NCBI GenBank assembly: GCA_036504675.1
Contig: DASXUT010000190.1
Coordinates: forward strand, 1-49,976
DNA from: Bacillota bacterium
Lineage (GTDB): Bacteria; Bacillota; Sulfobacillia; JAJYWN01; JAJZPE01
Direction: 5' to 3'
Length of the DNA: 49,976 bases
Under the pieces are notes generated by a model, which made no database searches, was not told where the DNA came from, and saw only the letters and a program-made list of their open reading frames with translations. Shown piece by piece: positions 24,075 through 33,383 of the stretch (the first letter of the stretch is position 1; each line of letters opens with the position of its first letter). The position numbers and the translations under genes are program-made.

Positions 24075-24335
24075 AGGGATCGCCTCCTGATAAACCACAA
24101 GGATCCCATTCATGATGGCCACCGCCCGCGAGAACACACAAGGTCGGATCCAGGCGGTGAGGAATCTGGACTCAGAAAGTCCAGCTTATCCGCTTAGGAT
24201 CATACCCACAGGGTTTTCGCCAGTCAAACACTTTTTTTGGACCGGTGACCACCCGGAAGGCCGGGTCCGGCATGTCTGGGAGCCGCCCCAAATATGGATT
24301 ACCGAGTCAGCGTCATTCCGGATGGAGGTGGACAG

Positions 24336-25556
24336 ATGCGGGCGCGCGGGATTCGATCCGGCCTTGCCGCGGTGTTGTCCTTGGCCCTGATCGCCTCCGG
24401 GGCGATGGTGGCGGCGGCCGGTCCGGCGGCGGCCCTGAACGCGCCGACCGCGGCCATAGCCACGCTCGGGAAGAGCCTGGAGATCAAGGCGCCTTCGGCC
24501 ATCCTTGTGGACGCCGGGAGCGGCCAAGTCCTCTTCGAGAAGAACAGCCATGAACGGCGGGCCATCGCCAGCATGACCAAGCTGATGGCCCTGGAGTTGG
24601 CTTTTGAGGCCATCGAAACCGGCAAGGTCTCCTTGCAGGACAAGGTATCCGCCAGTTCGGGGGCTTACCGGATGGGCGGTGCCCAGATCTGGCTGGCCCC
24701 GGGTGAGCAGATGCCCTTCGAAGACATCCTCCGGGCGGTGGCCATGCAATCGGCCAACGACGCCTCGGTGGTTGTCGCCGAGCACGTCGCCGGCAGCTTG
24801 GAGAGCTTCGTGGCGATGATGAACCAACGGGCCAAGGAACTGGGGATGCTGGACACCCACTACCAGAACCCGCATGGCATCGACGAGGCGGATCACTACA
24901 GCTCGGCCTTTGACCTGGCCGTCCTGGGCCGGGAGGCCGTGAGGCACTCGAAGCTCCTCGAGTTCACGTCGACCTGGGAGACCCGCATCCGGCCCGATCC
25001 GGTCAGCGGCAAGGGGCGGACCTGGCTGATCAACACCAACCGGTTACTGGTTCAAATGAAAGGGGTCGACGGGCTGAAGACCGGCTTTACCAACAACTCC
25101 GGCTACTGCCTCACGGCGACCCTCAAACGCGGCGACCTGCGGTTGATCTCAGTGGTCATGGGAGAGACCGAGGGCAAGCTCCGTTTCGATGAGTCGGCGA
25201 AGTTGCTCAGCTTTGGCTTCGCCAACTACTCCGGGGTGCCGGTCACCAAGAGCGGCGAGAAACTGGGCTCCGTCACCGTCCAGCGAGGCCTGGTGGAGAA
25301 GGTCGACGCGGTGGCCAAGGCCGACTTCTCGGTCGTCGTCCCGAAGGGCCAGGAGAGCGGCCTCAAGCGGGAGGTCCGACTGGCCAGGAGGGTGACCGCG
25401 CCCGTCCTCAAGGGTGCCCACCTAGGAACCTTGACCCTCACCCGTGACGGCCAGGAGGTCGGCCGGGTGGACCTGGTGGCGGCGGCCTCGGTCAAACGCA
25501 TCGGTTACTTCCGGTTGATTGGCCGGTTGACCGTGATCCTGCTAAGGGGGGACTGA
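24336..25556 (+). CDS. dacF: D-alanyl-D-alanine carboxypeptidase DacF (sporulation PBP)
   Basis: A 406-residue serine peptidase trimming the terminal D-Ala of peptidoglycan; DacF homologues set cross-linking in the spore cortex. Signal peptide (LAAVLSLALIASGAMVAAAG), then the three active-site motifs SMTK (about residue 79), SAN (about 138) and KTG (about 247), and the C-terminal beta-rich domain ending in a hydrophobic helix. ATG 24336 has GGAGGT seven bases upstream; ATG 24294 does not. As in Bacillus it precedes spoIIAA, but a terminator and a new promoter separate them here. Confidence 0.92.
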   Translation: MRARGIRSGLAAVLSLALIASGAMVAAAGPAAALNAPTAAIATLGKSLEIKAPSAILVDAGSGQVLFEKNSHERRAIASMTKLMALELAFEAIETGKVSLQDKVSASSGAYRMGGAQIWLAPGEQMPFEDILRAVAMQSANDASVVVAEHVAGSLESFVAMMNQRAKELGMLDTHYQNPHGIDEADHYSSAFDLAVLGREAVRHSKLLEFTSTWETRIRPDPVSGKGRTWLINTNRLLVQMKGVDGLKTGFTNNSGYCLTATLKRGDLRLISVVMGETEGKLRFDESAKLLSFGFANYSGVPVTKSGEKLGSVTVQRGLVEKVDAVAKADFSVVVPKGQESGLKREVRLARRVTAPVLKGAHLGTLTLTRDGQEVGRVDLVAAASVKRIGYFRLIGRLTVILLRGD

Positions 25557-25680: not shown

Positions 25681-25896
25681 ATGCGGGTTGACCAGGAGGT
25701 TCCCAGCAGTCCACACCTGGCCCGCGGCGGCACCGGTATCGTCCTGACTCCCTTCCTCGAGGGGATGAGGGCGGCCGGGGTGCCGATTGACGATGTCCTG
25801 GCGGCTCTGGGCAAGGATGGCGGCGACGGCGCTGCCGGGGGCGACCCCGCCCGCCGCGGCGAAGAAGACGGCGATCCACAGGTGGAGGTGCGTTGA
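25681..25896 (+). CDS. Possible small protein coupled to spoIIAA
   Basis: A 71-residue frame starting at ATG 25681, just downstream of the candidate sigma-H promoter, with TTGA overlap onto the spoIIAA start. The first half (GIVLTPFLEGMRAAGVPIDDVLAAL) looks globular; the rest is Gly/Asp/Arg-rich. There is no clear ribosome-binding site. It may be a leader peptide, a real coupled gene, or chance in a GC-rich genome. Confidence 0.3.
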   Translation: MRVDQEVPSSPHLARGGTGIVLTPFLEGMRAAGVPIDDVLAALGKDGGDGAAGGDPARRGEEDGDPQVEVR

Positions 25897-26234
25897 AGCA
25901 AATGAAGATAGAGCAGGAAGTGCGCGGCCGGACCCTGATCATCCGGCTCGGCGGGGAGCTCGATGTGAAGACCGCCCCCGAGTTCCGGGAGACGACCGAG
26001 GCCGCCCTGGAGCGACATGCCCCCAACCATCTCCTCATCAACCTCGACGGGGTCTCCTTCATCGACAGCACCGGACTGGGGGCCATCCTCGGCCGTTACC
26101 GCCGGATCCAGCAGGGCGGGGGCCGGATGTCGCTGGTCGCCCCGTCCCCCAATGTCCGGCGGGTGATGGAGCTGTCCGGGATCTTCAAGATCATGCCCGC
26201 CTATCGCTCGGAAGAGCGGGCCCTCGAAGGGTAG
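25893..26234 (+). CDS. spoIIAA: Anti-sigma F factor antagonist SpoIIAA
   Basis: A 113-residue STAS-domain protein. Unphosphorylated SpoIIAA binds SpoIIAB and frees sigma-F in the forespore. The phosphorylated serine is in VSFIDSTGLGAILGRY, matching the Bacillus FMDSSGLGVILGRY; GGELDVKTAPEF precedes it and ELSGIFKIMP follows. Start: TTG 25893 lies three bases after GGAGGT, ATG 25902 twelve bases; either is possible. The N-terminus differs by only three residues. Confidence 0.95.
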   Translation: MKQMKIEQEVRGRTLIIRLGGELDVKTAPEFRETTEAALERHAPNHLLINLDGVSFIDSTGLGAILGRYRRIQQGGGRMSLVAPSPNVRRVMELSGIFKIMPAYRSEERALEG

Positions 26235-26244
26235 GTGAGGGTGT

Positions 26245-26712
26245 TTGACCGAGCCCTTCAAGAACCACGTCAAACTCGAGATGGAGGCCCTGCCGGACAA
26301 CGTCGCCCTGGCCCGGGTCACCGTCGCCTCCTTTGCCACTCAACTTGACTTCACCCTCGAAGAGGTCGAGGACATCCGGGTGGCCGTCTCCGAAGCGGTC
26401 ACCAACGCCGTGGTCCACGCCTACGACGGCGGTCCGGGGACGGTGGTGATCGAGGCCGGCCACGATGGAGAGGCCTTGACCCTGACCATCCTCGATCACG
26501 GCCGCGGCATCCCCGACGTCGCCCTGGCGAGACAGCCGGCCTACACCACCGACCCCGAGCGGATGGGGCTCGGCTTCGCGATCATGGAGTCCTTCAGTGA
26601 CGAGCTCGACGTGACCTCGGCCCCGGGCCGCGGGACCACGGTCCGGATGGTGAAGCGCCCACGGGCGGCCAGAGCGCATGGGGGGAACCCGGCCGATGCC
26701 CGGCCCGTCTGA
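26245..26712 (+). CDS. spoIIAB: Anti-sigma F factor / kinase SpoIIAB
   Basis: A 155-residue GHKL-fold kinase that binds sigma-F and phosphorylates SpoIIAA. N-box VAVSEAVTNAVVHAY near residue 50, G1 box LDHGRGIPD near 90, G2 region RMGLGFAIMESF near 110. It begins TTG 26245, ten bases after spoIIAA, and runs about 10 residues longer than the Bacillus protein, overlapping sigF by 17 bases. The Arg/Ala-rich tail comes from this overlap. Confidence 0.95.
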   Translation: MTEPFKNHVKLEMEALPDNVALARVTVASFATQLDFTLEEVEDIRVAVSEAVTNAVVHAYDGGPGTVVIEAGHDGEALTLTILDHGRGIPDVALARQPAYTTDPERMGLGFAIMESFSDELDVTSAPGRGTTVRMVKRPRAARAHGGNPADARPV

Positions 26713-27427
26713 GCCGAGCCTCCTCGACCGGGCCAAGAGCGGCGACGCGGGGGCCCGGGAGGCCTTCGTCCGCCAGAACCTCGGACTGGTCCACTGCGTC
26801 GTCAGGAGGTTCTGCCCGCGGGCTTCCCCGACCGAGGCCGAAGACGTCTTCCAAGCCGGCTGCCTCGGGCTTATGAAGGCCATCGAAGGCTTCGAGCCCA
26901 GCTTCGGCACGCAGTTCTCGACCTACGCCGTGCCGACCATCCTCGGCGAGATCCGCCGTCACCTGCGCGAGGGCGGGCCGCTGAAGATCAGCCGCTCGGT
27001 GCGGGACCTGACGACGCGGGTCCGGCGGGTGGCGGCGGAACTGATGGGCAAGTTCGGGCGCGAGCCGACGGTCGCCGAGATCGGCGAGGCCTTGGGTGAG
27101 AACCCCGAGGACATCGTCGCCGCGCTGGAGAGCCTGAACCCGGTGGCTTCGCTGGACGCCGCTTCGACCGATCGGGAGGACGACCGGACCCTTGGGGACA
27201 AATTGAGCTCCCCGGGGGCCGAGGACGAAGAGGCCTTCCTCGACCGCGTCGCCGTCCGCGAGGCCCTGACCCGCCTGCCCGAGAGGCAGCGGGAGATCGT
27301 CTACTGGCGCTTCTTCCGCGATCGCAGCCAGCAACAAGTGGCCGCGCTGGTCGGGCTGTCGCAGGCGCAGGTGTCGCGGCTCGAGCGGGACGCCTTTCGA
27401 CAGATGCGGCAGCGGCTCGAGGCCTGA
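26696..27427 (+). CDS. sigF: RNA polymerase sigma factor sigma-F
   Basis: A 243-residue sigma-70-family factor, the first forespore-specific sigma. Region 2 is complete (EDVFQAGCLGLMKAIEGFEP, FSTYAVPTILGEIRRHLRE), region 3 follows (REPTVAEIGEALGENPEDI), and region 4 ends with an HTH (QQQVAALVGLSQAQVSRLERD). ATG 26696 is preferred because GGGGGGAA lies upstream inside spoIIAB; ATG 26678 is an alternative. Third gene of the spoIIA operon; a large terminator follows. Confidence 0.94.
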   Translation: MPGPSEPSLLDRAKSGDAGAREAFVRQNLGLVHCVVRRFCPRASPTEAEDVFQAGCLGLMKAIEGFEPSFGTQFSTYAVPTILGEIRRHLREGGPLKISRSVRDLTTRVRRVAAELMGKFGREPTVAEIGEALGENPEDIVAALESLNPVASLDAASTDREDDRTLGDKLSSPGAEDEEAFLDRVAVREALTRLPERQREIVYWRFFRDRSQQQVAALVGLSQAQVSRLERDAFRQMRQRLEA

Positions 27428-27488: not shown

Positions 27489-27542
27489 GCCCGGCGGCCC
27501 GCCGGCGAAGGTCCGGCGGAAGCCCGCCGGGCCTGCTTTTTT
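27489..27542 (+). terminator. Rho-independent terminator after sigF
   Basis: GCCCGGCGG near 27489 pairs with CCGCCGGGC near 27532, enclosing a second stem GCCGG/CCGGC. TGCTTTTTT follows. Confidence 0.85.
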
Positions 27543-27586: not shown

Positions 27587-27616
27587 GCATAACGGCTTTA
27601 CTGCCAGAGCATAATA
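27587..27616 (+). promoter_or_regulatory. Candidate sigma-G promoter of the spoVA operon
   Basis: GCATA at 27587-27591 and CATAATA at 27610-27616, spacing 18, fit the forespore sigma-G consensus (GnATR, CATnnTA). spoVA is sigma-G-dependent in B. subtilis. The first gene starts 32 bases downstream. Confidence 0.6.
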
Positions 27617-27647
27617 AACCCACGTCAGGCAGCGGAGGGTATGAACC

Positions 27648-27836
27648 ATGACCGTCCAACCCACCCCCAGGACCTCCCGGCTGATGACCGCCCTGGTCAT
27701 CGTCAGCCTGATCCTCGTCGCCCTCCTTTGGGCGGCCGCCTACATCCGATCGGAGCCGAAGGTCCCGCGGCGGACCACCATCATCAGGCTCGACCGAAGC
27801 GTTTCCCATCGCGGCCTGGTCCGGCGGTTCGATTGA
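27648..27836 (+). CDS. Small single-span membrane protein, first gene of spoVA operon
   Basis: A 62-residue protein: short polar N-terminus, one helix (LMTALVIVSLILVALLWAAAY, about residues 12-32), then a basic tail (KVPRRTTIIRLDRSVSHRG). ATG 27648 has GGAGGG eight bases upstream; ATG 27641 in another frame gives an unlikely His/Pro/Arg-rich product. It stands directly behind the candidate sigma-G promoter, where spoVAA/spoVAB are found in Bacillus. No family recognised. Confidence 0.65.
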   Translation: MTVQPTPRTSRLMTALVIVSLILVALLWAAAYIRSEPKVPRRTTIIRLDRSVSHRGLVRRFD

Positions 27837-27882
27837 CCCGCCGGTGGCATCGACATCACATGGACAGGGAGGCTGAGCGCAA

Positions 27883-28221
27883 GTGACTGTGGTGAAGGTA
27901 TTGGAGCTCGTCGGGGAGTCCAAGAACAGCTGGCAGGAAGCGGCTTCGAACGCGGTGACCGAGGCCGCTCGGACGGTCGACCACATCACCGGGGTCGAGG
28001 TCATCAACTGGACCGCGGCTGTCAGCGGGCAGGAGATTAAGGATTACAAGGCCAACGTCAAGGTCGCCTTCGTGGTCGACGGGAACCGCCAGGGTCAGGG
28101 ACAGAGTCAGGGACAGAGCCAGAGCCAGGGTCAGGGACAGAGTCAGGGCCAGGGACAGAGCCAGAGCCAGGGTCAGGGCCAGGGTCAGGGCCACAGCCCG
28201 AGCCAGAGATCGCCTTTCTGA
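27883..28221 (+). CDS. Dodecin-family protein with Gln/Gly/Ser-repeat tail
   Basis: A 112-residue protein. Residues 1-68 are a dodecin fold (VVKVLELVGESKNSWQEAAS, EAARTVDHITGVEV, KANVKVAFVVD), the small beta-wrapped helix that assembles into hollow dodecamers. Where flavin-binding dodecins have a stacking Trp, this one has Glu (GVEV), so flavin binding is doubtful. Residues 70-103 are a low-complexity tail built of GQ and SQ pairs, unknown in standard dodecins. GTG start at 27883 after GGGAGG. It lies between the small membrane gene and spoVAC, so forespore expression is likely. Confidence 0.8.
   Translation: MTVVKVLELVGESKNSWQEAASNAVTEAARTVDHITGVEVINWTAAVSGQEIKDYKANVKVAFVVDGNRQGQGQSQGQSQSQGQGQSQGQGQSQSQGQGQGQGHSPSQRSPF
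28088..28199 (+). repeat. Low-complexity hexamer repeats inside the dodecin tail
   Basis: Repeated CAGGGx and CAGAGx hexamers (CAGGGTCAGGGACAGAGT and variants) encode alternating Gln-Gly and Gln-Ser. Units are near-identical at the DNA level, implying recent slippage or selection on the protein tail. Confidence 0.85.
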
Positions 28222-28245: not shown

Positions 28246-28704
28246 ATGACCACCGCAACGAAGGAACAACAAACCTCTTACACACGCCTGTTGAAGAAGC
28301 ACCGGCCCAACCCGCCGGTGCTCCGCAATGCCCTGGCTGCCTTCATCACCGGTGGGGCCATCAGCGCCATCGGCCAAGTGGTGATGAGCTTCTTCCTCGG
28401 GCGCGGACTGCTGCCGGCGGAGGCGACCGTCTGGACCGCCGGGGCGATGATCTTCCTCGGCTCTCTGCTTACGGCCATCGGGGTCTATGACCTCATCGGG
28501 CGGTGGGGAGGGATGGGGGCGGCTTTGCCCATCACCGGATTCGCCAACGCCGTCGTCTCGCCGGCCATGGACTTCCGGCGGGAAGGATGGGTGCTCGGGC
28601 TGGGGGCCAAGATGTTTGTCATCGCCGGCCCGGTGATCGTCTTCGGCGTCGTCACGTCGGTCGTGGTCGGTTTGGCCCGCATCCTCCTGTGGGGAGTGCG
28701 CTGA
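28246..28704 (+). CDS. spoVAC: Stage V sporulation protein AC
   Basis: A 152-residue membrane protein, part of the SpoVA channel that moves dipicolinic acid into the forespore and out at germination; SpoVAC of B. subtilis behaves as a mechanosensitive channel. About four hydrophobic helices (NALAAFITGGAISAIGQ, VWTAGAMIFLGSLLTAIG) and the conserved GMGAALPITGFANAVVSPAM. ATG 28246 lacks a clear ribosome-binding site. It is in frame with, and 24 bases after, the dodecin stop, so reinitiation is possible. Confidence 0.95.
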   Translation: MTTATKEQQTSYTRLLKKHRPNPPVLRNALAAFITGGAISAIGQVVMSFFLGRGLLPAEATVWTAGAMIFLGSLLTAIGVYDLIGRWGGMGAALPITGFANAVVSPAMDFRREGWVLGLGAKMFVIAGPVIVFGVVTSVVVGLARILLWGVR

Positions 28705-28731: not shown

Positions 28732-29757
28732 ACGGCTCCGAACCGGATCGGCCAGGGGACTCTGAGATTCCGGCGGCGCCCGGTGATCGTCGCCACGGCG
28801 GCCATCGCCGGGCCCGATGAGGGGAAGGGCCCTTTGGGCCCGGAGTTCGACGAGATCAAGAAAGACCGGCTTCTCGGGCTGGGGAGTTGGGAGAAGGCCG
28901 AGTCGCAGATGCTTCGGGAGGCCATCATCATGGCCATGTCCCGCGGCTCCTCCGACGAATGCCAGATCGACCTGCTGTTCGCCGGCGACCTCTTGAACCA
29001 GATCATCTCGGCCGACTTCTGCCTCCGCGAGTTCAGCACTCCTTTCATCGGCCTCTACGGGGCCTGCTCGACGATGGCGGAAAGCCTGATCATGGCGGCC
29101 ATGGCCGTCGATGGCGGTTACGCCGACCGGGCCGTCGCCGCGACGTCCAGCCACTTCGACACGGCCGAGCGGCAGTTCCGCTACCCCATCGAGCACGGCA
29201 GTCAGCGGCATCCGACGACCCAGTGGACGGCCACCGGGGCCGGGGCGGTGGTGGTCGCCGCCTCCGGCCGGGGACCGGTGGTCGCCGCGGCGACGGTCGG
29301 CGTGGTCATCGACTACAAGCAGAAGAACATCAACGACATGGGCGGGGCGATGGCTCCCGCCGCCGCCGACACCATCATCAGGCACCTCCGGGCCACCGGG
29401 CGGCGGCCCGAGGATTACGACCTCATCGCCACCGGGGACCTGGCCGCCGTGGGCCATCCCGTGGCGGCGGAGCTGATCGAGCAGGCCGGCTTCCGCCTGG
29501 GCGACCGATTCAAGGACTGCGGCCTGATGCTCTATGACCGCAAGAAGCAGGACGTCCACGCCGGCGGCAGCGGGTGCGCCTGTTCGGCCCTGGTCTATTG
29601 CGGGCACATCCATAAGCGTCTCGAGCGAGGGGAAGCCAAGCGAGTCCTGCTGGTCGGGACGGGGGCGCTCTTCAGCCCGACTTCCACCCAGCAGGGAGAG
29701 TCCATCCCGAGCATCGCCCATGCGGTGGAGATCGAGGCGGGAGGCGAGGGAGGATGA
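28732..29757 (+). CDS. spoVAD: Stage V sporulation protein AD (non-canonical start)
   Basis: SpoVAD is a thiolase-fold protein that binds dipicolinic acid. Family segments: FAGDLLNQIISADFCLRE, YGACSTMAESLIMA, SSHFDTAERQFRYPIEHG, GGAMAPAAADTI. The first canonical start is GTG 28783, which has no ribosome-binding site and loses the conserved N-terminal strand. Residues encoded upstream (RIGQGTLRFRRRPVIVATA) still align with the family, and the frame is open back to a stop at 28723. ACG 28732 lies nine bases after a run of seven G (28716-28722) and gives 341 residues, the normal length. CTG 28762 or a sequencing error are alternatives. Confidence 0.9.
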   Translation, partial: TAPNRIGQGTLRFRRRPVIVATAAIAGPDEGKGPLGPEFDEIKKDRLLGLGSWEKAESQMLREAIIMAMSRGSSDECQIDLLFAGDLLNQIISADFCLREFSTPFIGLYGACSTMAESLIMAAMAVDGGYADRAVAATSSHFDTAERQFRYPIEHGSQRHPTTQWTATGAGAVVVAASGRGPVVAAATVGVVIDYKQKNINDMGGAMAPAAADTIIRHLRATGRRPEDYDLIATGDLAAVGHPVAAELIEQAGFRLGDRFKDCGLMLYDRKKQDVHAGGSGCACSALVYCGHIHKRLERGEAKRVLLVGTGALFSPTSTQQGESIPSIAHAVEIEAGGEGG

Positions 29758-30113
29758 TGAAGGTAGTGATGGCCTTCGTCATCGGTGGCGGTCTCTGCGT
29801 CCTCGCTCAATTGGTCCTCGACCTCGGGCGGGTCACGCCCGCCCACGTCCTGGTCGGAGCGGTGGTCATCGGGGCCATTCTGAGCGGGTTCGGGCTCTAC
29901 AGCCCGCTGGTCCACCTGGGCGGGGCCGGCGCCACCGTACCCCTCCTCGGTTTCGGGCATTCTCTGGTTCAGGGGGTCCTCCGGGATTTCACCCTCCGCG
30001 GCTGGCCGGGCCTCCTGACCGGCGGCTTTTCCGCCGCCGCGGTAGGTCTGTCGACGGTAATCATCCTGGCCACCCTGGCCGCCCTGGTGACCCGGCCGAA
30101 GCGGAAGTACTAG
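29754..30113 (+). CDS. spoVAE: Stage V sporulation protein AE (AEB, short membrane form)
   Basis: A 119-residue membrane protein of the SpoVA channel, paralogous in fold to SpoVAC: VVMAFVIGGGLCVLAQLVLD, then LGGAGATVPLLGFGHSLVQG. ATG at 29754 overlaps the spoVAD stop. About four hydrophobic helices. The position after spoVAD is standard. Confidence 0.93.
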   Translation: MMKVVMAFVIGGGLCVLAQLVLDLGRVTPAHVLVGAVVIGAILSGFGLYSPLVHLGGAGATVPLLGFGHSLVQGVLRDFTLRGWPGLLTGGFSAAAVGLSTVIILATLAALVTRPKRKY

Positions 30114-30161: not shown

Positions 30162-30551
30162 ATGATTGAACTCGACCTATTCGGATTGCTCCTCACCGCG
30201 GTCGTCGTCGGCCCACGCCAGGCGCACCTGGTCGTCCTGGCGTCCTTGCTTCAGGAGGCCCTCCGCGTCCTGGCCGCCGTGGCTTTGCGCCACGACCTCC
30301 TGGCGGTGATGGCCGGCGGGGCCTTCGGGGCGACGGCGGCCGAAGGTCTCCCGCCCCTCGTCCTCGGGCTGGCCGGGCCGGCCCTGCTGGCCCTGGTGGC
30401 CCTGAACCTGGTCCACGGGCGGGAACGGCTGGCCGAGATCATCACCCCCTGGCGCGAGAGTGGTTATCCCTTCGCCGCGGTGGCCCTCCGACTGGCCGTC
30501 CTGACGGCGGCCATCGTCGTCTCCATCAGCCTCGGGGGTGGCGGACCCTGA
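30162..30551 (+). CDS. Unknown membrane protein inside the spoVA operon
   Basis: A 129-residue, Leu/Ala-rich protein with about four hydrophobic segments (LFGLLLTAVVVGPRQ, LPPLVLGLAGPALLALVALN, LAVLTAAIVVSISLG). It lies between the two SpoVAE-type genes, where B. subtilis has none. ATG 30162, weak ribosome-binding site (GGCGAAGG). I do not recognise a family. Hydrophobicity and operon position suggest a forespore-membrane partner of the channel, which is inference. Confidence 0.6.
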   Translation: MIELDLFGLLLTAVVVGPRQAHLVVLASLLQEALRVLAAVALRHDLLAVMAGGAFGATAAEGLPPLVLGLAGPALLALVALNLVHGRERLAEIITPWRESGYPFAAVALRLAVLTAAIVVSISLGGGGP

Positions 30552-30580: not shown

Positions 30581-31207
30581 ATGGAACGGACGGACAAGCA
30601 GAAAGCGGGCAAGAAACGGGTCATCCTTGTCACCGACGGCGACCGGGTGGCCGAGAGGGTCATCGAGATGGCCGCCAAGAAGCTCGGGCTACGGACCATC
30701 TCGCGGTCCGGGGGCAACCCGACCCCGATCTCCGGCAAGGAGATCGTCGACCTGATCATGGAGGCGCCCAAGGACCCGGTCCTGGTGATGGTGGACGATC
30801 GTGGGAAGTCGGAGAAGTGGAAGGGCGAGCGCGCCCTGGAGCGCATCGCCAAGGACCCCAAGATCGAAGTCCTCGGAGTGGTCGCCATCGCCTCCCACAC
30901 CCATGACGCCAACGGGAGCCACGTGGATGTGTCGGTGACCGCCAAAGGGGAATTGGTCGACGGGCCGGTCAATAAGGAGGGCGTGCCCGATGAGAAGCAT
31001 GGGCGACTCAAAGGCGACACCGTCGACGTCCTCGAGGACCTGACCATCCCGGTCATCGTCGGCGAGGGCGACCCGGGGAAGCAGGACGGCGCCGACTGGC
31101 TCAGTAAGGGGGCCCCGCTGACGATGAAGGCCATCGAGGAGATCCTCCGACGGAACGACATCGAGGCCGAGGGCCTGTCGGGCCGGGTGGATCCGGGGGA
31201 ACATTGA
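30581..31207 (+). CDS. spoVAEA: Stage V sporulation protein AEA
   Basis: A 208-residue soluble protein of the SpoVAE N-terminal type. Start KKRVILVTDGDRVAERVIE and the segments LRTISRSGGNPTPISGKEIV and VVAIASHTHDANGSHVDVSV are typical, ending in TIPVIVGEGDPGKQDGAD. In Bacillus this soluble protein accompanies the SpoVA channel in the forespore. ATG 30581; ATGA-type overlap with the next gene at its end couples the activase genes to spoVA. Confidence 0.92.
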   Translation: MERTDKQKAGKKRVILVTDGDRVAERVIEMAAKKLGLRTISRSGGNPTPISGKEIVDLIMEAPKDPVLVMVDDRGKSEKWKGERALERIAKDPKIEVLGVVAIASHTHDANGSHVDVSVTAKGELVDGPVNKEGVPDEKHGRLKGDTVDVLEDLTIPVIVGEGDPGKQDGADWLSKGAPLTMKAIEEILRRNDIEAEGLSGRVDPGEH

Positions 31208-32256
31208 TGGTGACGGACGTCGCCAGGCGGAGACCGATCCGCGTCGGCGTTCCAAGGGCCCTCCTCTACCACGAATACGCCGCCCTCTGGACGGCTTTCC
31301 TGGCCGGCCTCGGGCTGGAGGTGGTCGTCTCCGACCCGACGTCGAAGTCCATCGTCGACGCCGGGGTGAAGGAGGCGGTCGACGAGGCCTGCCTGCCGGT
31401 GAAGGTCTTCTACGGCCACGTCATCGACCTCCGCCGCAAGGGAGTCGATTACATCTTCCTGCCGCGGGTGGTCGCGGTCGAGCGGCGGGCCTACTCATGC
31501 CCGAAGCTCCTCGGGCTGCCCGACATGATCAGGCACACGGTCAAGCCATTGCCGCCGCTCATCGACGAGACCGTGAACGTGGCCAGGAAACCGCGGCAGA
31601 TCTATGGCGCGCTGTGGCGGGCGACGGCGCCCTTCACCCGCAACCCGTGGACGTTGGCGAGGGCCTGGCGCCGGGCGCTGCGGGCCCACCGGGACTACCG
31701 GGAGCGGCTGTTGGCCGGTTGGATCCCGGGCGGGGGGAAGGCGGGGGACCGGGGGGGGACGGAGAGCCCGGGCGTCCACGACGGAGACCCCTCGGACCGC
31801 CTGACTATCGGCGTCCTCGGCCATCCCTACAACGTCTACGATCGCCACATCAGCCTCGACCTGCTCGGGAGGCTCGAACGGTGGGGGGTCAGGGTGGTCA
31901 CGGCCGATTCCGTCCCGACCGAGGTGGCCAGGGCCGAGACGGACCGGTTGCCGAAGGACCTCTTCTGGTCGACGGGCCGGAAGATCCTCGGCTCGGGGCT
32001 GCACTACCTCAACAGCCGCTCGGTGGACGGGCTGATCCATCTGGTCTCCTTCGGCTGCGGGCCGGACTCGCTGGTCGGGGAGTTGGTCCAGCGGAAGGCG
32101 GCCCGCCTGGGGACGGTGCCTTTCCTCCTGCTCACCCTGGACGAGCATTCCGGCGAGGCCGGACTGGTGACCCGGATCGAGGCCTTCATGGACATGGTCA
32201 GGCAGCAGCGGAGGGCCGGCGGGGGGCCGGTCGGGGAGGGTGGGAACGTCGGATGA
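31204..32256 (+). CDS. Acyl-CoA dehydratase activase-related protein (DUF2229/HgdB-like), copy 1
   Basis: A 350-residue protein of the 2-hydroxyacyl-CoA dehydratase component family fused in other organisms to activases. Starts IRVGVPRALLYHEYAALWTA. Candidate Fe-S cysteines are in VDEACLPVKVFYGH, AYSCPKLLGLPDM and SFGCGPDSLV. The C-terminal LTLDEHSGEAGLVTRIEAF is shared with the next gene, so the two are paralogues. ATG overlaps the spoVAEA stop. A Gly-rich insert (GGGKAGDRGGTESPG) near residue 178 looks like a linker. No catalytic dehydratase subunits are nearby. Confidence 0.8.
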   Translation: MMVTDVARRRPIRVGVPRALLYHEYAALWTAFLAGLGLEVVVSDPTSKSIVDAGVKEAVDEACLPVKVFYGHVIDLRRKGVDYIFLPRVVAVERRAYSCPKLLGLPDMIRHTVKPLPPLIDETVNVARKPRQIYGALWRATAPFTRNPWTLARAWRRALRAHRDYRERLLAGWIPGGGKAGDRGGTESPGVHDGDPSDRLTIGVLGHPYNVYDRHISLDLLGRLERWGVRVVTADSVPTEVARAETDRLPKDLFWSTGRKILGSGLHYLNSRSVDGLIHLVSFGCGPDSLVGELVQRKAARLGTVPFLLLTLDEHSGEAGLVTRIEAFMDMVRQQRRAGGGPVGEGGNVG

Positions 32257-33383
32257 AGGTCACCTTTCCCCACATGGGCACTCTCTGGGTGGCCGCCAAG
32301 GCCATCCTCGAGGACCTCGACCTGGAGGTCGTCGTCCCGCCCAGGCCGACCACCCGGACGATGAACCTCGGGGTCAAGCACTCACCCGAATTCGCCTGCC
32401 TGCCGCTGAAGCTGTGCGTCGGCAACTACCTCGAAGCCTTTGAGCGCGGGGCCGACGCCATCGTCATGGCCGGCGGCATCGGTCCCTGCCGGTTCGGCTA
32501 CTACGCCCAGGTCGAGCGGGAGATCCTCAACGACCTCGGGTACTCGTACCGGATGATCGTCCTCGAGCCGCCCAAGGGGCACCTCTCGGACCTTGTCAAC
32601 GAGATCAAGGGCTTTACCGGCCAGCGTTCGCTGCGCCGGATCTATCAGGCCGCCCTGTTCGGCTATCGGAAGCTGGGGGCACTCGACGCCATCGAGCGTC
32701 GGACGAACCAAGTCCGGGTGGACGAGGCGGCCCGCGGGGGGACCGGCCACGCCGTACAGAAGGCGACGGCCCTCATCGACCGGGCGGCGTCGATGGACGA
32801 TCTGAAAACGGCCCTCGCCCGAGGCCTTGAGGTCCTCGATCAGGTCCCGCGCAAGGAATCCGGCGACCCGCTCAAGATCGGCCTCGTCGGCGAGGTTTAC
32901 ATGCTCCTCGAACCCTACGTCAACCTCGATATCGAGCGACAGTTGGGGGAGATGGGCGTCCTCGTCGAGCGTCACGTCTACCTGACCGACTGGGTCCGCA
33001 GCCATCTGACGGCCGACTTCCTCCGGTTCGATCACGAGCGGGAGATGCGTCAGGCCGCCAAGCCCTACCTCGGGCACTGGGTCGGCGGGCACGGGGTGGA
33101 GACCATCGGGAATTCCGTCCTCTACGCCCGCCGGGGCTTCGACGGGGTCATTCAGGTGGCCCCGCTGACCTGCATGCCCGAGATCGTCGCCCGCAGCCTG
33201 CTGCCGGTGGTCAGCCAGGACCACGGGATCCCCTTCCTGTCGCTATTCCTCGACGAGCACGCCGGTGAGGCCGGCCTCCGCACCCGCCTGGAGGCCTTCG
33301 TCGACCTCCTCGAACGCCGGCGGGAGCAACGCCGGCGGCGGGCTTCAACCCTTTCTTTGGAGGTGGCCGGACATTCGCGGTAA
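32253..33383 (+). CDS. Acyl-CoA dehydratase activase-related protein (HgdB-like), copy 2
   Basis: A 376-residue relative of the preceding gene. Candidate iron-sulfur cysteines: FACLPLKLCVGNYLE, GGIGPCRFGYYAQVE, PLTCMPEIVARSLLP. Shared C-terminal LFLDEHAGEAGLRTRLEAF. Members of this family bind a [4Fe-4S] cluster and receive an electron from an ATP-driven activase such as the next gene's product. ATG 32253 overlaps the upstream stop; the long frame upstream to 31497 is a shadow of the previous gene. Confidence 0.8.
   Translation: MKVTFPHMGTLWVAAKAILEDLDLEVVVPPRPTTRTMNLGVKHSPEFACLPLKLCVGNYLEAFERGADAIVMAGGIGPCRFGYYAQVEREILNDLGYSYRMIVLEPPKGHLSDLVNEIKGFTGQRSLRRIYQAALFGYRKLGALDAIERRTNQVRVDEAARGGTGHAVQKATALIDRAASMDDLKTALARGLEVLDQVPRKESGDPLKIGLVGEVYMLLEPYVNLDIERQLGEMGVLVERHVYLTDWVRSHLTADFLRFDHEREMRQAAKPYLGHWVGGHGVETIGNSVLYARRGFDGVIQVAPLTCMPEIVARSLLPVVSQDHGIPFLSLFLDEHAGEAGLRTRLEAFVDLLERRREQRRRRASTLSLEVAGHSR

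Follow-up and report, generated by a model that had tools for sequence, protein, structure and literature searches.

The spoVA operon of Bacillus subtilis has the order spoVAA-AB-AC-AD-AEb-AEa-AF, and the SpoVA proteins carry calcium dipicolinate into the forespore and out again at germination, SpoVAD binding dipicolinate. The flavin dodecins of Halobacterium salinarum, Halorhodospira (PDB entry 2vxa), Thermus, Mycobacterium tuberculosis (Rv1498A) and Streptomyces have in common a beta-alpha-beta-beta fold and a core of about 66 residues, and in the archaeal dodecins the flavin is held by W36 and Q55. A calcium dodecin, Rv0379 or SecE2 (3onr), is present in M. tuberculosis, which is not known to have a spoVA operon. 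Here we describe a dodecin gene located within a spoVA operon, on a stretch of 49,976 nucleotides (contig DASXUT010000190.1 of assembly GCA_036504675.1, hereafter the window) from a member of the Bacillota belonging to the class Sulfobacillia, and compare it with its counterparts in related genomes. The dodecin gene follows a gene encoding a 62-residue single-pass membrane protein, and the two stand ahead of spoVAC, as an initial annotation of the sequence had proposed.

As in B. subtilis, the window encodes spoVAC, spoVAD, spoVAEb and spoVAEa downstream of the spoIIA genes and sigF, with a predicted sigma-G-type promoter. According to the open reading frames and Pfam matches, the order on the forward strand is dacF-spoIIAA-spoIIAB-sigF, the small membrane protein gene, dodecin, spoVAC, spoVAD, spoVAEb, a gene for a 129-residue protein and spoVAEa; membership of a spoVA operon is evident from the Pfam-identified succession of spoVAC, spoVAD and spoVAE. 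The locus differs from that of B. subtilis, whose control genome contains no dodecin, and the window genome differs also in that SpoVAA was not found in it.

This arrangement is neither unique to the assembly nor a chance juxtaposition, since it recurs across dozens of families. Within the same class, 30 dodecin loci of relatives were compared, and nearly all have sigF upstream and/or spoVAC-spoVAD downstream. Across a sample of 250 genomes from the phylum (completeness at least 90%), a dodecin is encoded by 146 and SpoVAD by 218, and 145 of the 146 dodecin-positive genomes possess SpoVAD (p=1.6e-12 by Fisher's test, without correction for common ancestry). A second draw from the phylum, centred on Caproiciproducens, gave these genomes again and contributes no independent observations. 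Among genomes sampled from the best SpoVAD matches listed, the dodecin lies 0-3 kb upstream of spoVAD on the same strand in 78 of 105 places, representing 33 families, at a median distance of 597 nt, and the median interval from the dodecin stop to the predicted spoVAC start is 56 nt (75 loci). Of 99 non-redundant loci, a biased set in that some were picked as linked, spoVAC/AD follows the dodecin in 76; a further 12 are flanked by sigF upstream and/or spoVAEa downstream, and the other 11 lack all of these neighbours. A scan of named genomes with SpoVAD yielded two loci only. In L073, one of the 11 unlinked loci, a membrane-dipeptidase-like gene, a holin-like gene (PF04020) and a gene of the GerA family follow the dodecin, about 280-2130 nt from its start; L089 and L091, also among the 11, resemble it by eye, and L070 has similar surroundings. 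One genome of the same family (G002, 97% complete) gave no dodecin match, reflecting either loss or an assembly gap, whereas its congener G001 has the gene.

The initial annotation held that the membrane protein and dodecin occur instead of spoVAA and spoVAB, and this part of its description of the operon start is misleading. SpoVAA is rare in the phylum, being found in 12 of the 250 genomes and absent from 238, and it coexists with the dodecin in four of those 12 (G098, G110, G146 and G271). In two loci, L058 and L077, both SpoVAA and SpoVAB are located between sigF and the dodecin, the order in L077 being sigF, a small protein, SpoVAA, SpoVAB, dodecin and spoVAC. We therefore reject the view that the dodecin replaces SpoVAA/AB.

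The window dodecin (27883-28221, forward strand, GTG start) matches Pfam family PF07311 over the entire profile (positions 1-64 of 64; E=4.3e-22; 78.6 bits against a cut-off of 22.5) with a core spanning residues 3-66. The AlphaFold monomer model has the beta-alpha-beta-beta topology, with a predicted local confidence (pLDDT) of about 93-98 in the core block, and the top 29 Foldseek matches of the model are all dodecins, the Halorhodospira structure 2vxa scoring a TM-score of 0.92 (by target length) at 32% sequence identity. The protein, modelled here as a monomer, would very probably assemble into the usual twelve-subunit cage. It falls below the cut-offs of the two NCBIfam dodecin equivalog models, NF041389 (44 vs 100 bits) and NF043052 (43 vs 75 bits). 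A tree of the 66-residue core leaves most forks unresolved, the core being too short, and copies linked and unlinked to spoVA are intermingled within it.

The flavins of dodecins are sandwiched between symmetry-related Trp residues (PMC7414021). Alignment of the window protein to H. salinarum dodecin places Gly37 at W36, Lys56 at Q55 and Glu39 at E38, so that beyond its location in a spoVA operon the protein differs from the flavin dodecins at both residues that contact the cofactor. The initial annotation had read the stacking Trp as replaced by Glu, an error of two positions, as Glu39 aligns with the ordinary E38; the probable loss of flavin binding that it implied is supported by the alignment. 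The replacement is nearly invariant across 100 sequences, with Gly in 99 and Glu in one at the W36 position and Lys in 91 and Arg in nine at the Q55 position, and the least variable positions of the dodecin include Gly37, Thr44, Asn42, Glu39, Trp17, Asn58 and Lys56. From these residues it appears that flavin binding has probably been lost in the spore-operon dodecin. A decaying pocket would be expected to drift, whereas this one is fixed for other residues, and for this reason the pocket has probably been retained and repurposed for a ligand other than flavin.

Upstream of the dodecin, a perfect match to the sigma-G consensus (GCATA-N18-CATAATA, 27587-27616, forward strand) is located beyond the terminator of the spoIIA operon and ahead of the small membrane protein gene, as had been claimed, and a sigma-G-type site also precedes the dodecin in the closest relative, L032. 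We scanned 420 nt upstream of 100 dodecin genes with the consensus sequences of B. subtilis. Strict sigma-G sites were found in 13 regions, compared with a mean of 1.5 and a maximum of 4 in shuffled sequences and one on the antisense strand, and strict sigma-F sites in nine, compared with 0.76 in shuffles and again one antisense. The enrichment supports forespore control across the set, at the level of motif counts.

The membrane protein gene (27648-27836, forward strand) is preceded by GGAGGG about 9 nt ahead of its ATG, and its product, a transmembrane helix followed by a Pro-containing motif, has no match in Pfam or NCBIfam. Thirty spacer open reading frames with a transmembrane helix were found upstream of dodecins, and 23 of these 30 carry a motif after the helix, compared with 14 of 154 other open reading frames with such helices (p=6e-14). 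As this motif was composed after the candidates had been viewed, more weight is to be given to cross-validation, in which profiles built from two thirds of the members recover those held out with E values down to 1e-10. Unrelated open reading frames reach about 0.09 at best in these searches, and the better matches outside the member set (L039 and L077) are themselves further open reading frames upstream of a dodecin. A profile from which the window protein was excluded recovers it with E=3.5e-7, although its relative L032 was possibly in the training set. By these profile comparisons it is a member of a conserved, unnamed family that occupies the same place in other genomes. The proposal that the dodecin and the small membrane protein stand first in a spoVA operon of forespore type is supported.

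On balance we consider it probable, with some reserve, that the dodecins of the spoVA operon in many sporeformers other than Bacillus constitute a defined non-flavin subfamily, made in the forespore as a cage that works together with the SpoVA channel. The dodecin would be synthesised from a sigma-G-type, sometimes sigma-F-type, promoter, in most cases along with spoVAC-AD-AE and frequently with the small membrane protein as well. The likeliest mechanism would place the dodecamer in the nascent core or on the forespore face of the SpoVA complex, and the membrane protein might tether it. The cage may bind or buffer the cargo of the channel, either dipicolinate through the cationic Lys/Arg pocket or Ca2+, or it may cap SpoVA proteins, and in so doing would aid loading of calcium dipicolinate. 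A cationic pocket lacking Trp, in a presumably co-transcribed cage, makes such a binder or cap plausible. The choice of dipicolinate or calcium as ligand is offered tentatively and with low confidence. What the sequences show is the genes present, their order, co-occurrence and conservation, the promoter motif, the residue replacements and the predicted fold; the dodecamer, its expression in the forespore, its ligand and its place of action are inferred. We would extend equally limited credence to the bolder view that the dodecamer is an overlooked component of the spore dipicolinate machinery outside Bacillus, binding calcium dipicolinate (or calcium) and gating or feeding SpoVA with its small membrane partner, a function that Bacillus would perform differently.

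Several observations weigh against this proposal. The dodecin is absent from 73 of the 218 genomes that possess SpoVAD, as it is from the B. subtilis control, and it is therefore not essential to the SpoVA channel in general. Within the 420 nt scanned, about 80 of the 100 regions contain neither a strict sigma-G nor a strict sigma-F site, and since most loci lack such a match the support for forespore control stops short of each single locus. The combination of Gly with Lys or Arg in the pocket is found also in two haloarchaeal dodecins (L141 and L142), encoded on plasmids of Natronococcus sp. AD-5 and Haladaptatus pallidirubidus, which in addition share Thr44. The replacement is therefore not an invention of spores, and we reject the Gly/Lys signature as a spore-specific marker. 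Other dodecins have lost the Trp in favour of Ser, in Peptoclostridium, Allomeiothermus and Microvirga, and taken with the haloarchaeal Gly forms they indicate that Trp loss is not confined to spore operons. Finally, part of the gene order may have been passively inherited.

It is possible, if doubtful, that the dodecamer is a ligand-free structural scaffold, whose 12 termini and conserved surface organise the SpoVA membrane or forespore proteins. Such a role would be in keeping with the conservation of Trp17, with the co-located membrane protein and with the toleration of an extended C-terminal tail in the window genome, but conservation in the protein is particularly high at the pocket positions Gly37, Asn42, Thr44 and Lys56, which points to a binding site. 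We regard it as unlikely that the protein is instead a calcium dodecin of the M. tuberculosis type, serving to buffer or deliver Ca2+ while the forespore accumulates calcium dipicolinate. Rv0379 is the second-best sequence match in the PDB, shares Trp17, likewise lacks the stacking Trp and has a basic residue, Arg, at the Gln position; its acidic residues, however, differ from those of the window dodecin, the conserved Glu8, Glu12 and Glu39 being replaced by Asp, Thr and Arg, respectively.

A dodecin with a general stress or cofactor function might also have kept an ancestral position between sigF and spoVAC, with no role in the spore. The haloarchaeal relatives with a similar signature belong to non-sporeformers, and the Haladaptatus copy adjoins two genes for universal stress proteins; moreover, 11 of the 99 loci adjoin neither sigF nor spoVA genes. 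Against this, the co-occurrence with SpoVAD in 145 of 146 genomes, the tight operon spacing and the forespore-type promoters, together with the presence of some relocated dodecin copies beside a GerA-family gene, make a passive neighbour rather improbable. That spores simply employ a conventional flavin-storing dodecin is highly improbable, as both flavin residues are replaced in essentially all 100 sequences and both equivalog cut-offs are missed, even though the fold is the same and 2vxa, the structure most similar to the model, was determined with riboflavin.

A further feature of the window dodecin is its low-complexity tail of Gln-Gly and Gln-Ser repeats, reported in the initial annotation and amounting by our count to 46 residues past core residue 66 (28081-28218, forward strand), mostly Gln with Gly or Ser. 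The underlying DNA, at 28088-28208, is a degenerate CAGGGN/CAGAGN repeat; the tail is modelled without secondary structure and at lower AlphaFold confidence than the core. Counted from the core Phe/Tyr, 49 residues follow in the window protein, whereas in 104 other loci the median is 6 and no stretch is longer than 21. The long tail is thus a repeat expansion private to the window genome among those sampled, and it is probably not central to function. The idea of a dodecamer decorated with twelve such tails as a point of general interest is accordingly set aside; the initial annotation was right in its core idea, and wrong in its emphasis on the tail and on a Trp-to-Glu change.

No relevant publication joining dodecins with spores, sporulation, the spore coat, endospores or spoVAC was found in the open-licence papers searched, which is not proof of novelty but agrees with the earlier statement that the arrangement is undescribed. 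The spoVA-linked dodecin is real and widespread and, as far as that literature could be searched, has not been described as a system. Annotation pipelines may already have given the genes the label 'dodecin family protein', so that specialists who browse genomes could have noticed them. What is understood of the loading and release of calcium dipicolinate comes chiefly from Bacillus; should the majority of other sporeformers carry a dedicated dodecin and small membrane protein in this operon, a part of the machinery would have been overlooked because B. subtilis does not have it. Dodecins, whose role is loosely understood, would at the same time be linked to a definite biological process and gain a clearly delimited non-flavin subfamily.

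The remaining genes of the locus, from dacF to spoVAEa, lie on the forward strand. The upstream group consists of dacF (24294-25556), encoding a D-Ala-D-Ala carboxypeptidase and named from gene order and homologues, spoIIAA (25893-26234) and spoIIAB (26245-26712), all three open reading frames having tblastn homologues at the same place in relatives, followed by sigF (26678-27427), which contains sigma-70 regions 2, 3 and 4 according to Pfam. The spoIIA operon ends at an intrinsic terminator (27509-27541) with a stem at 27509-27534 of 11 pairs, 9 of them GC, and then the T-run GCTTTTTTGG. Downstream of the dodecin are spoVAC (28246-28704; PF03862, E=1e-34), spoVAD (28783-29757; PF07451, E=1e-140), spoVAEb (29754-30113; SpoVAC_SpoVAEB family, Pfam E=1.3e-26) and spoVAEa (30581-31207; SpoVAE PF14097, E=5.6e-72). 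The unnamed membrane-like protein of 129 residues encoded within the operon between spoVAEb and spoVAEa (30162-30551) has no match in Pfam or NCBIfam; homologues are present in L032, L044 and L102. After spoVAEa, a pair of DUF2229 / 2-hydroxyacyl-CoA dehydratase-activase-like genes occupies 31204-33383, and DUF2229 homologues also occur downstream of the dodecin, within the stretch retrieved, in a further 11 non-redundant loci belonging to several families (L032, L034, L035, L038, L070, L072, L073, L075, L078, L087 and L089).
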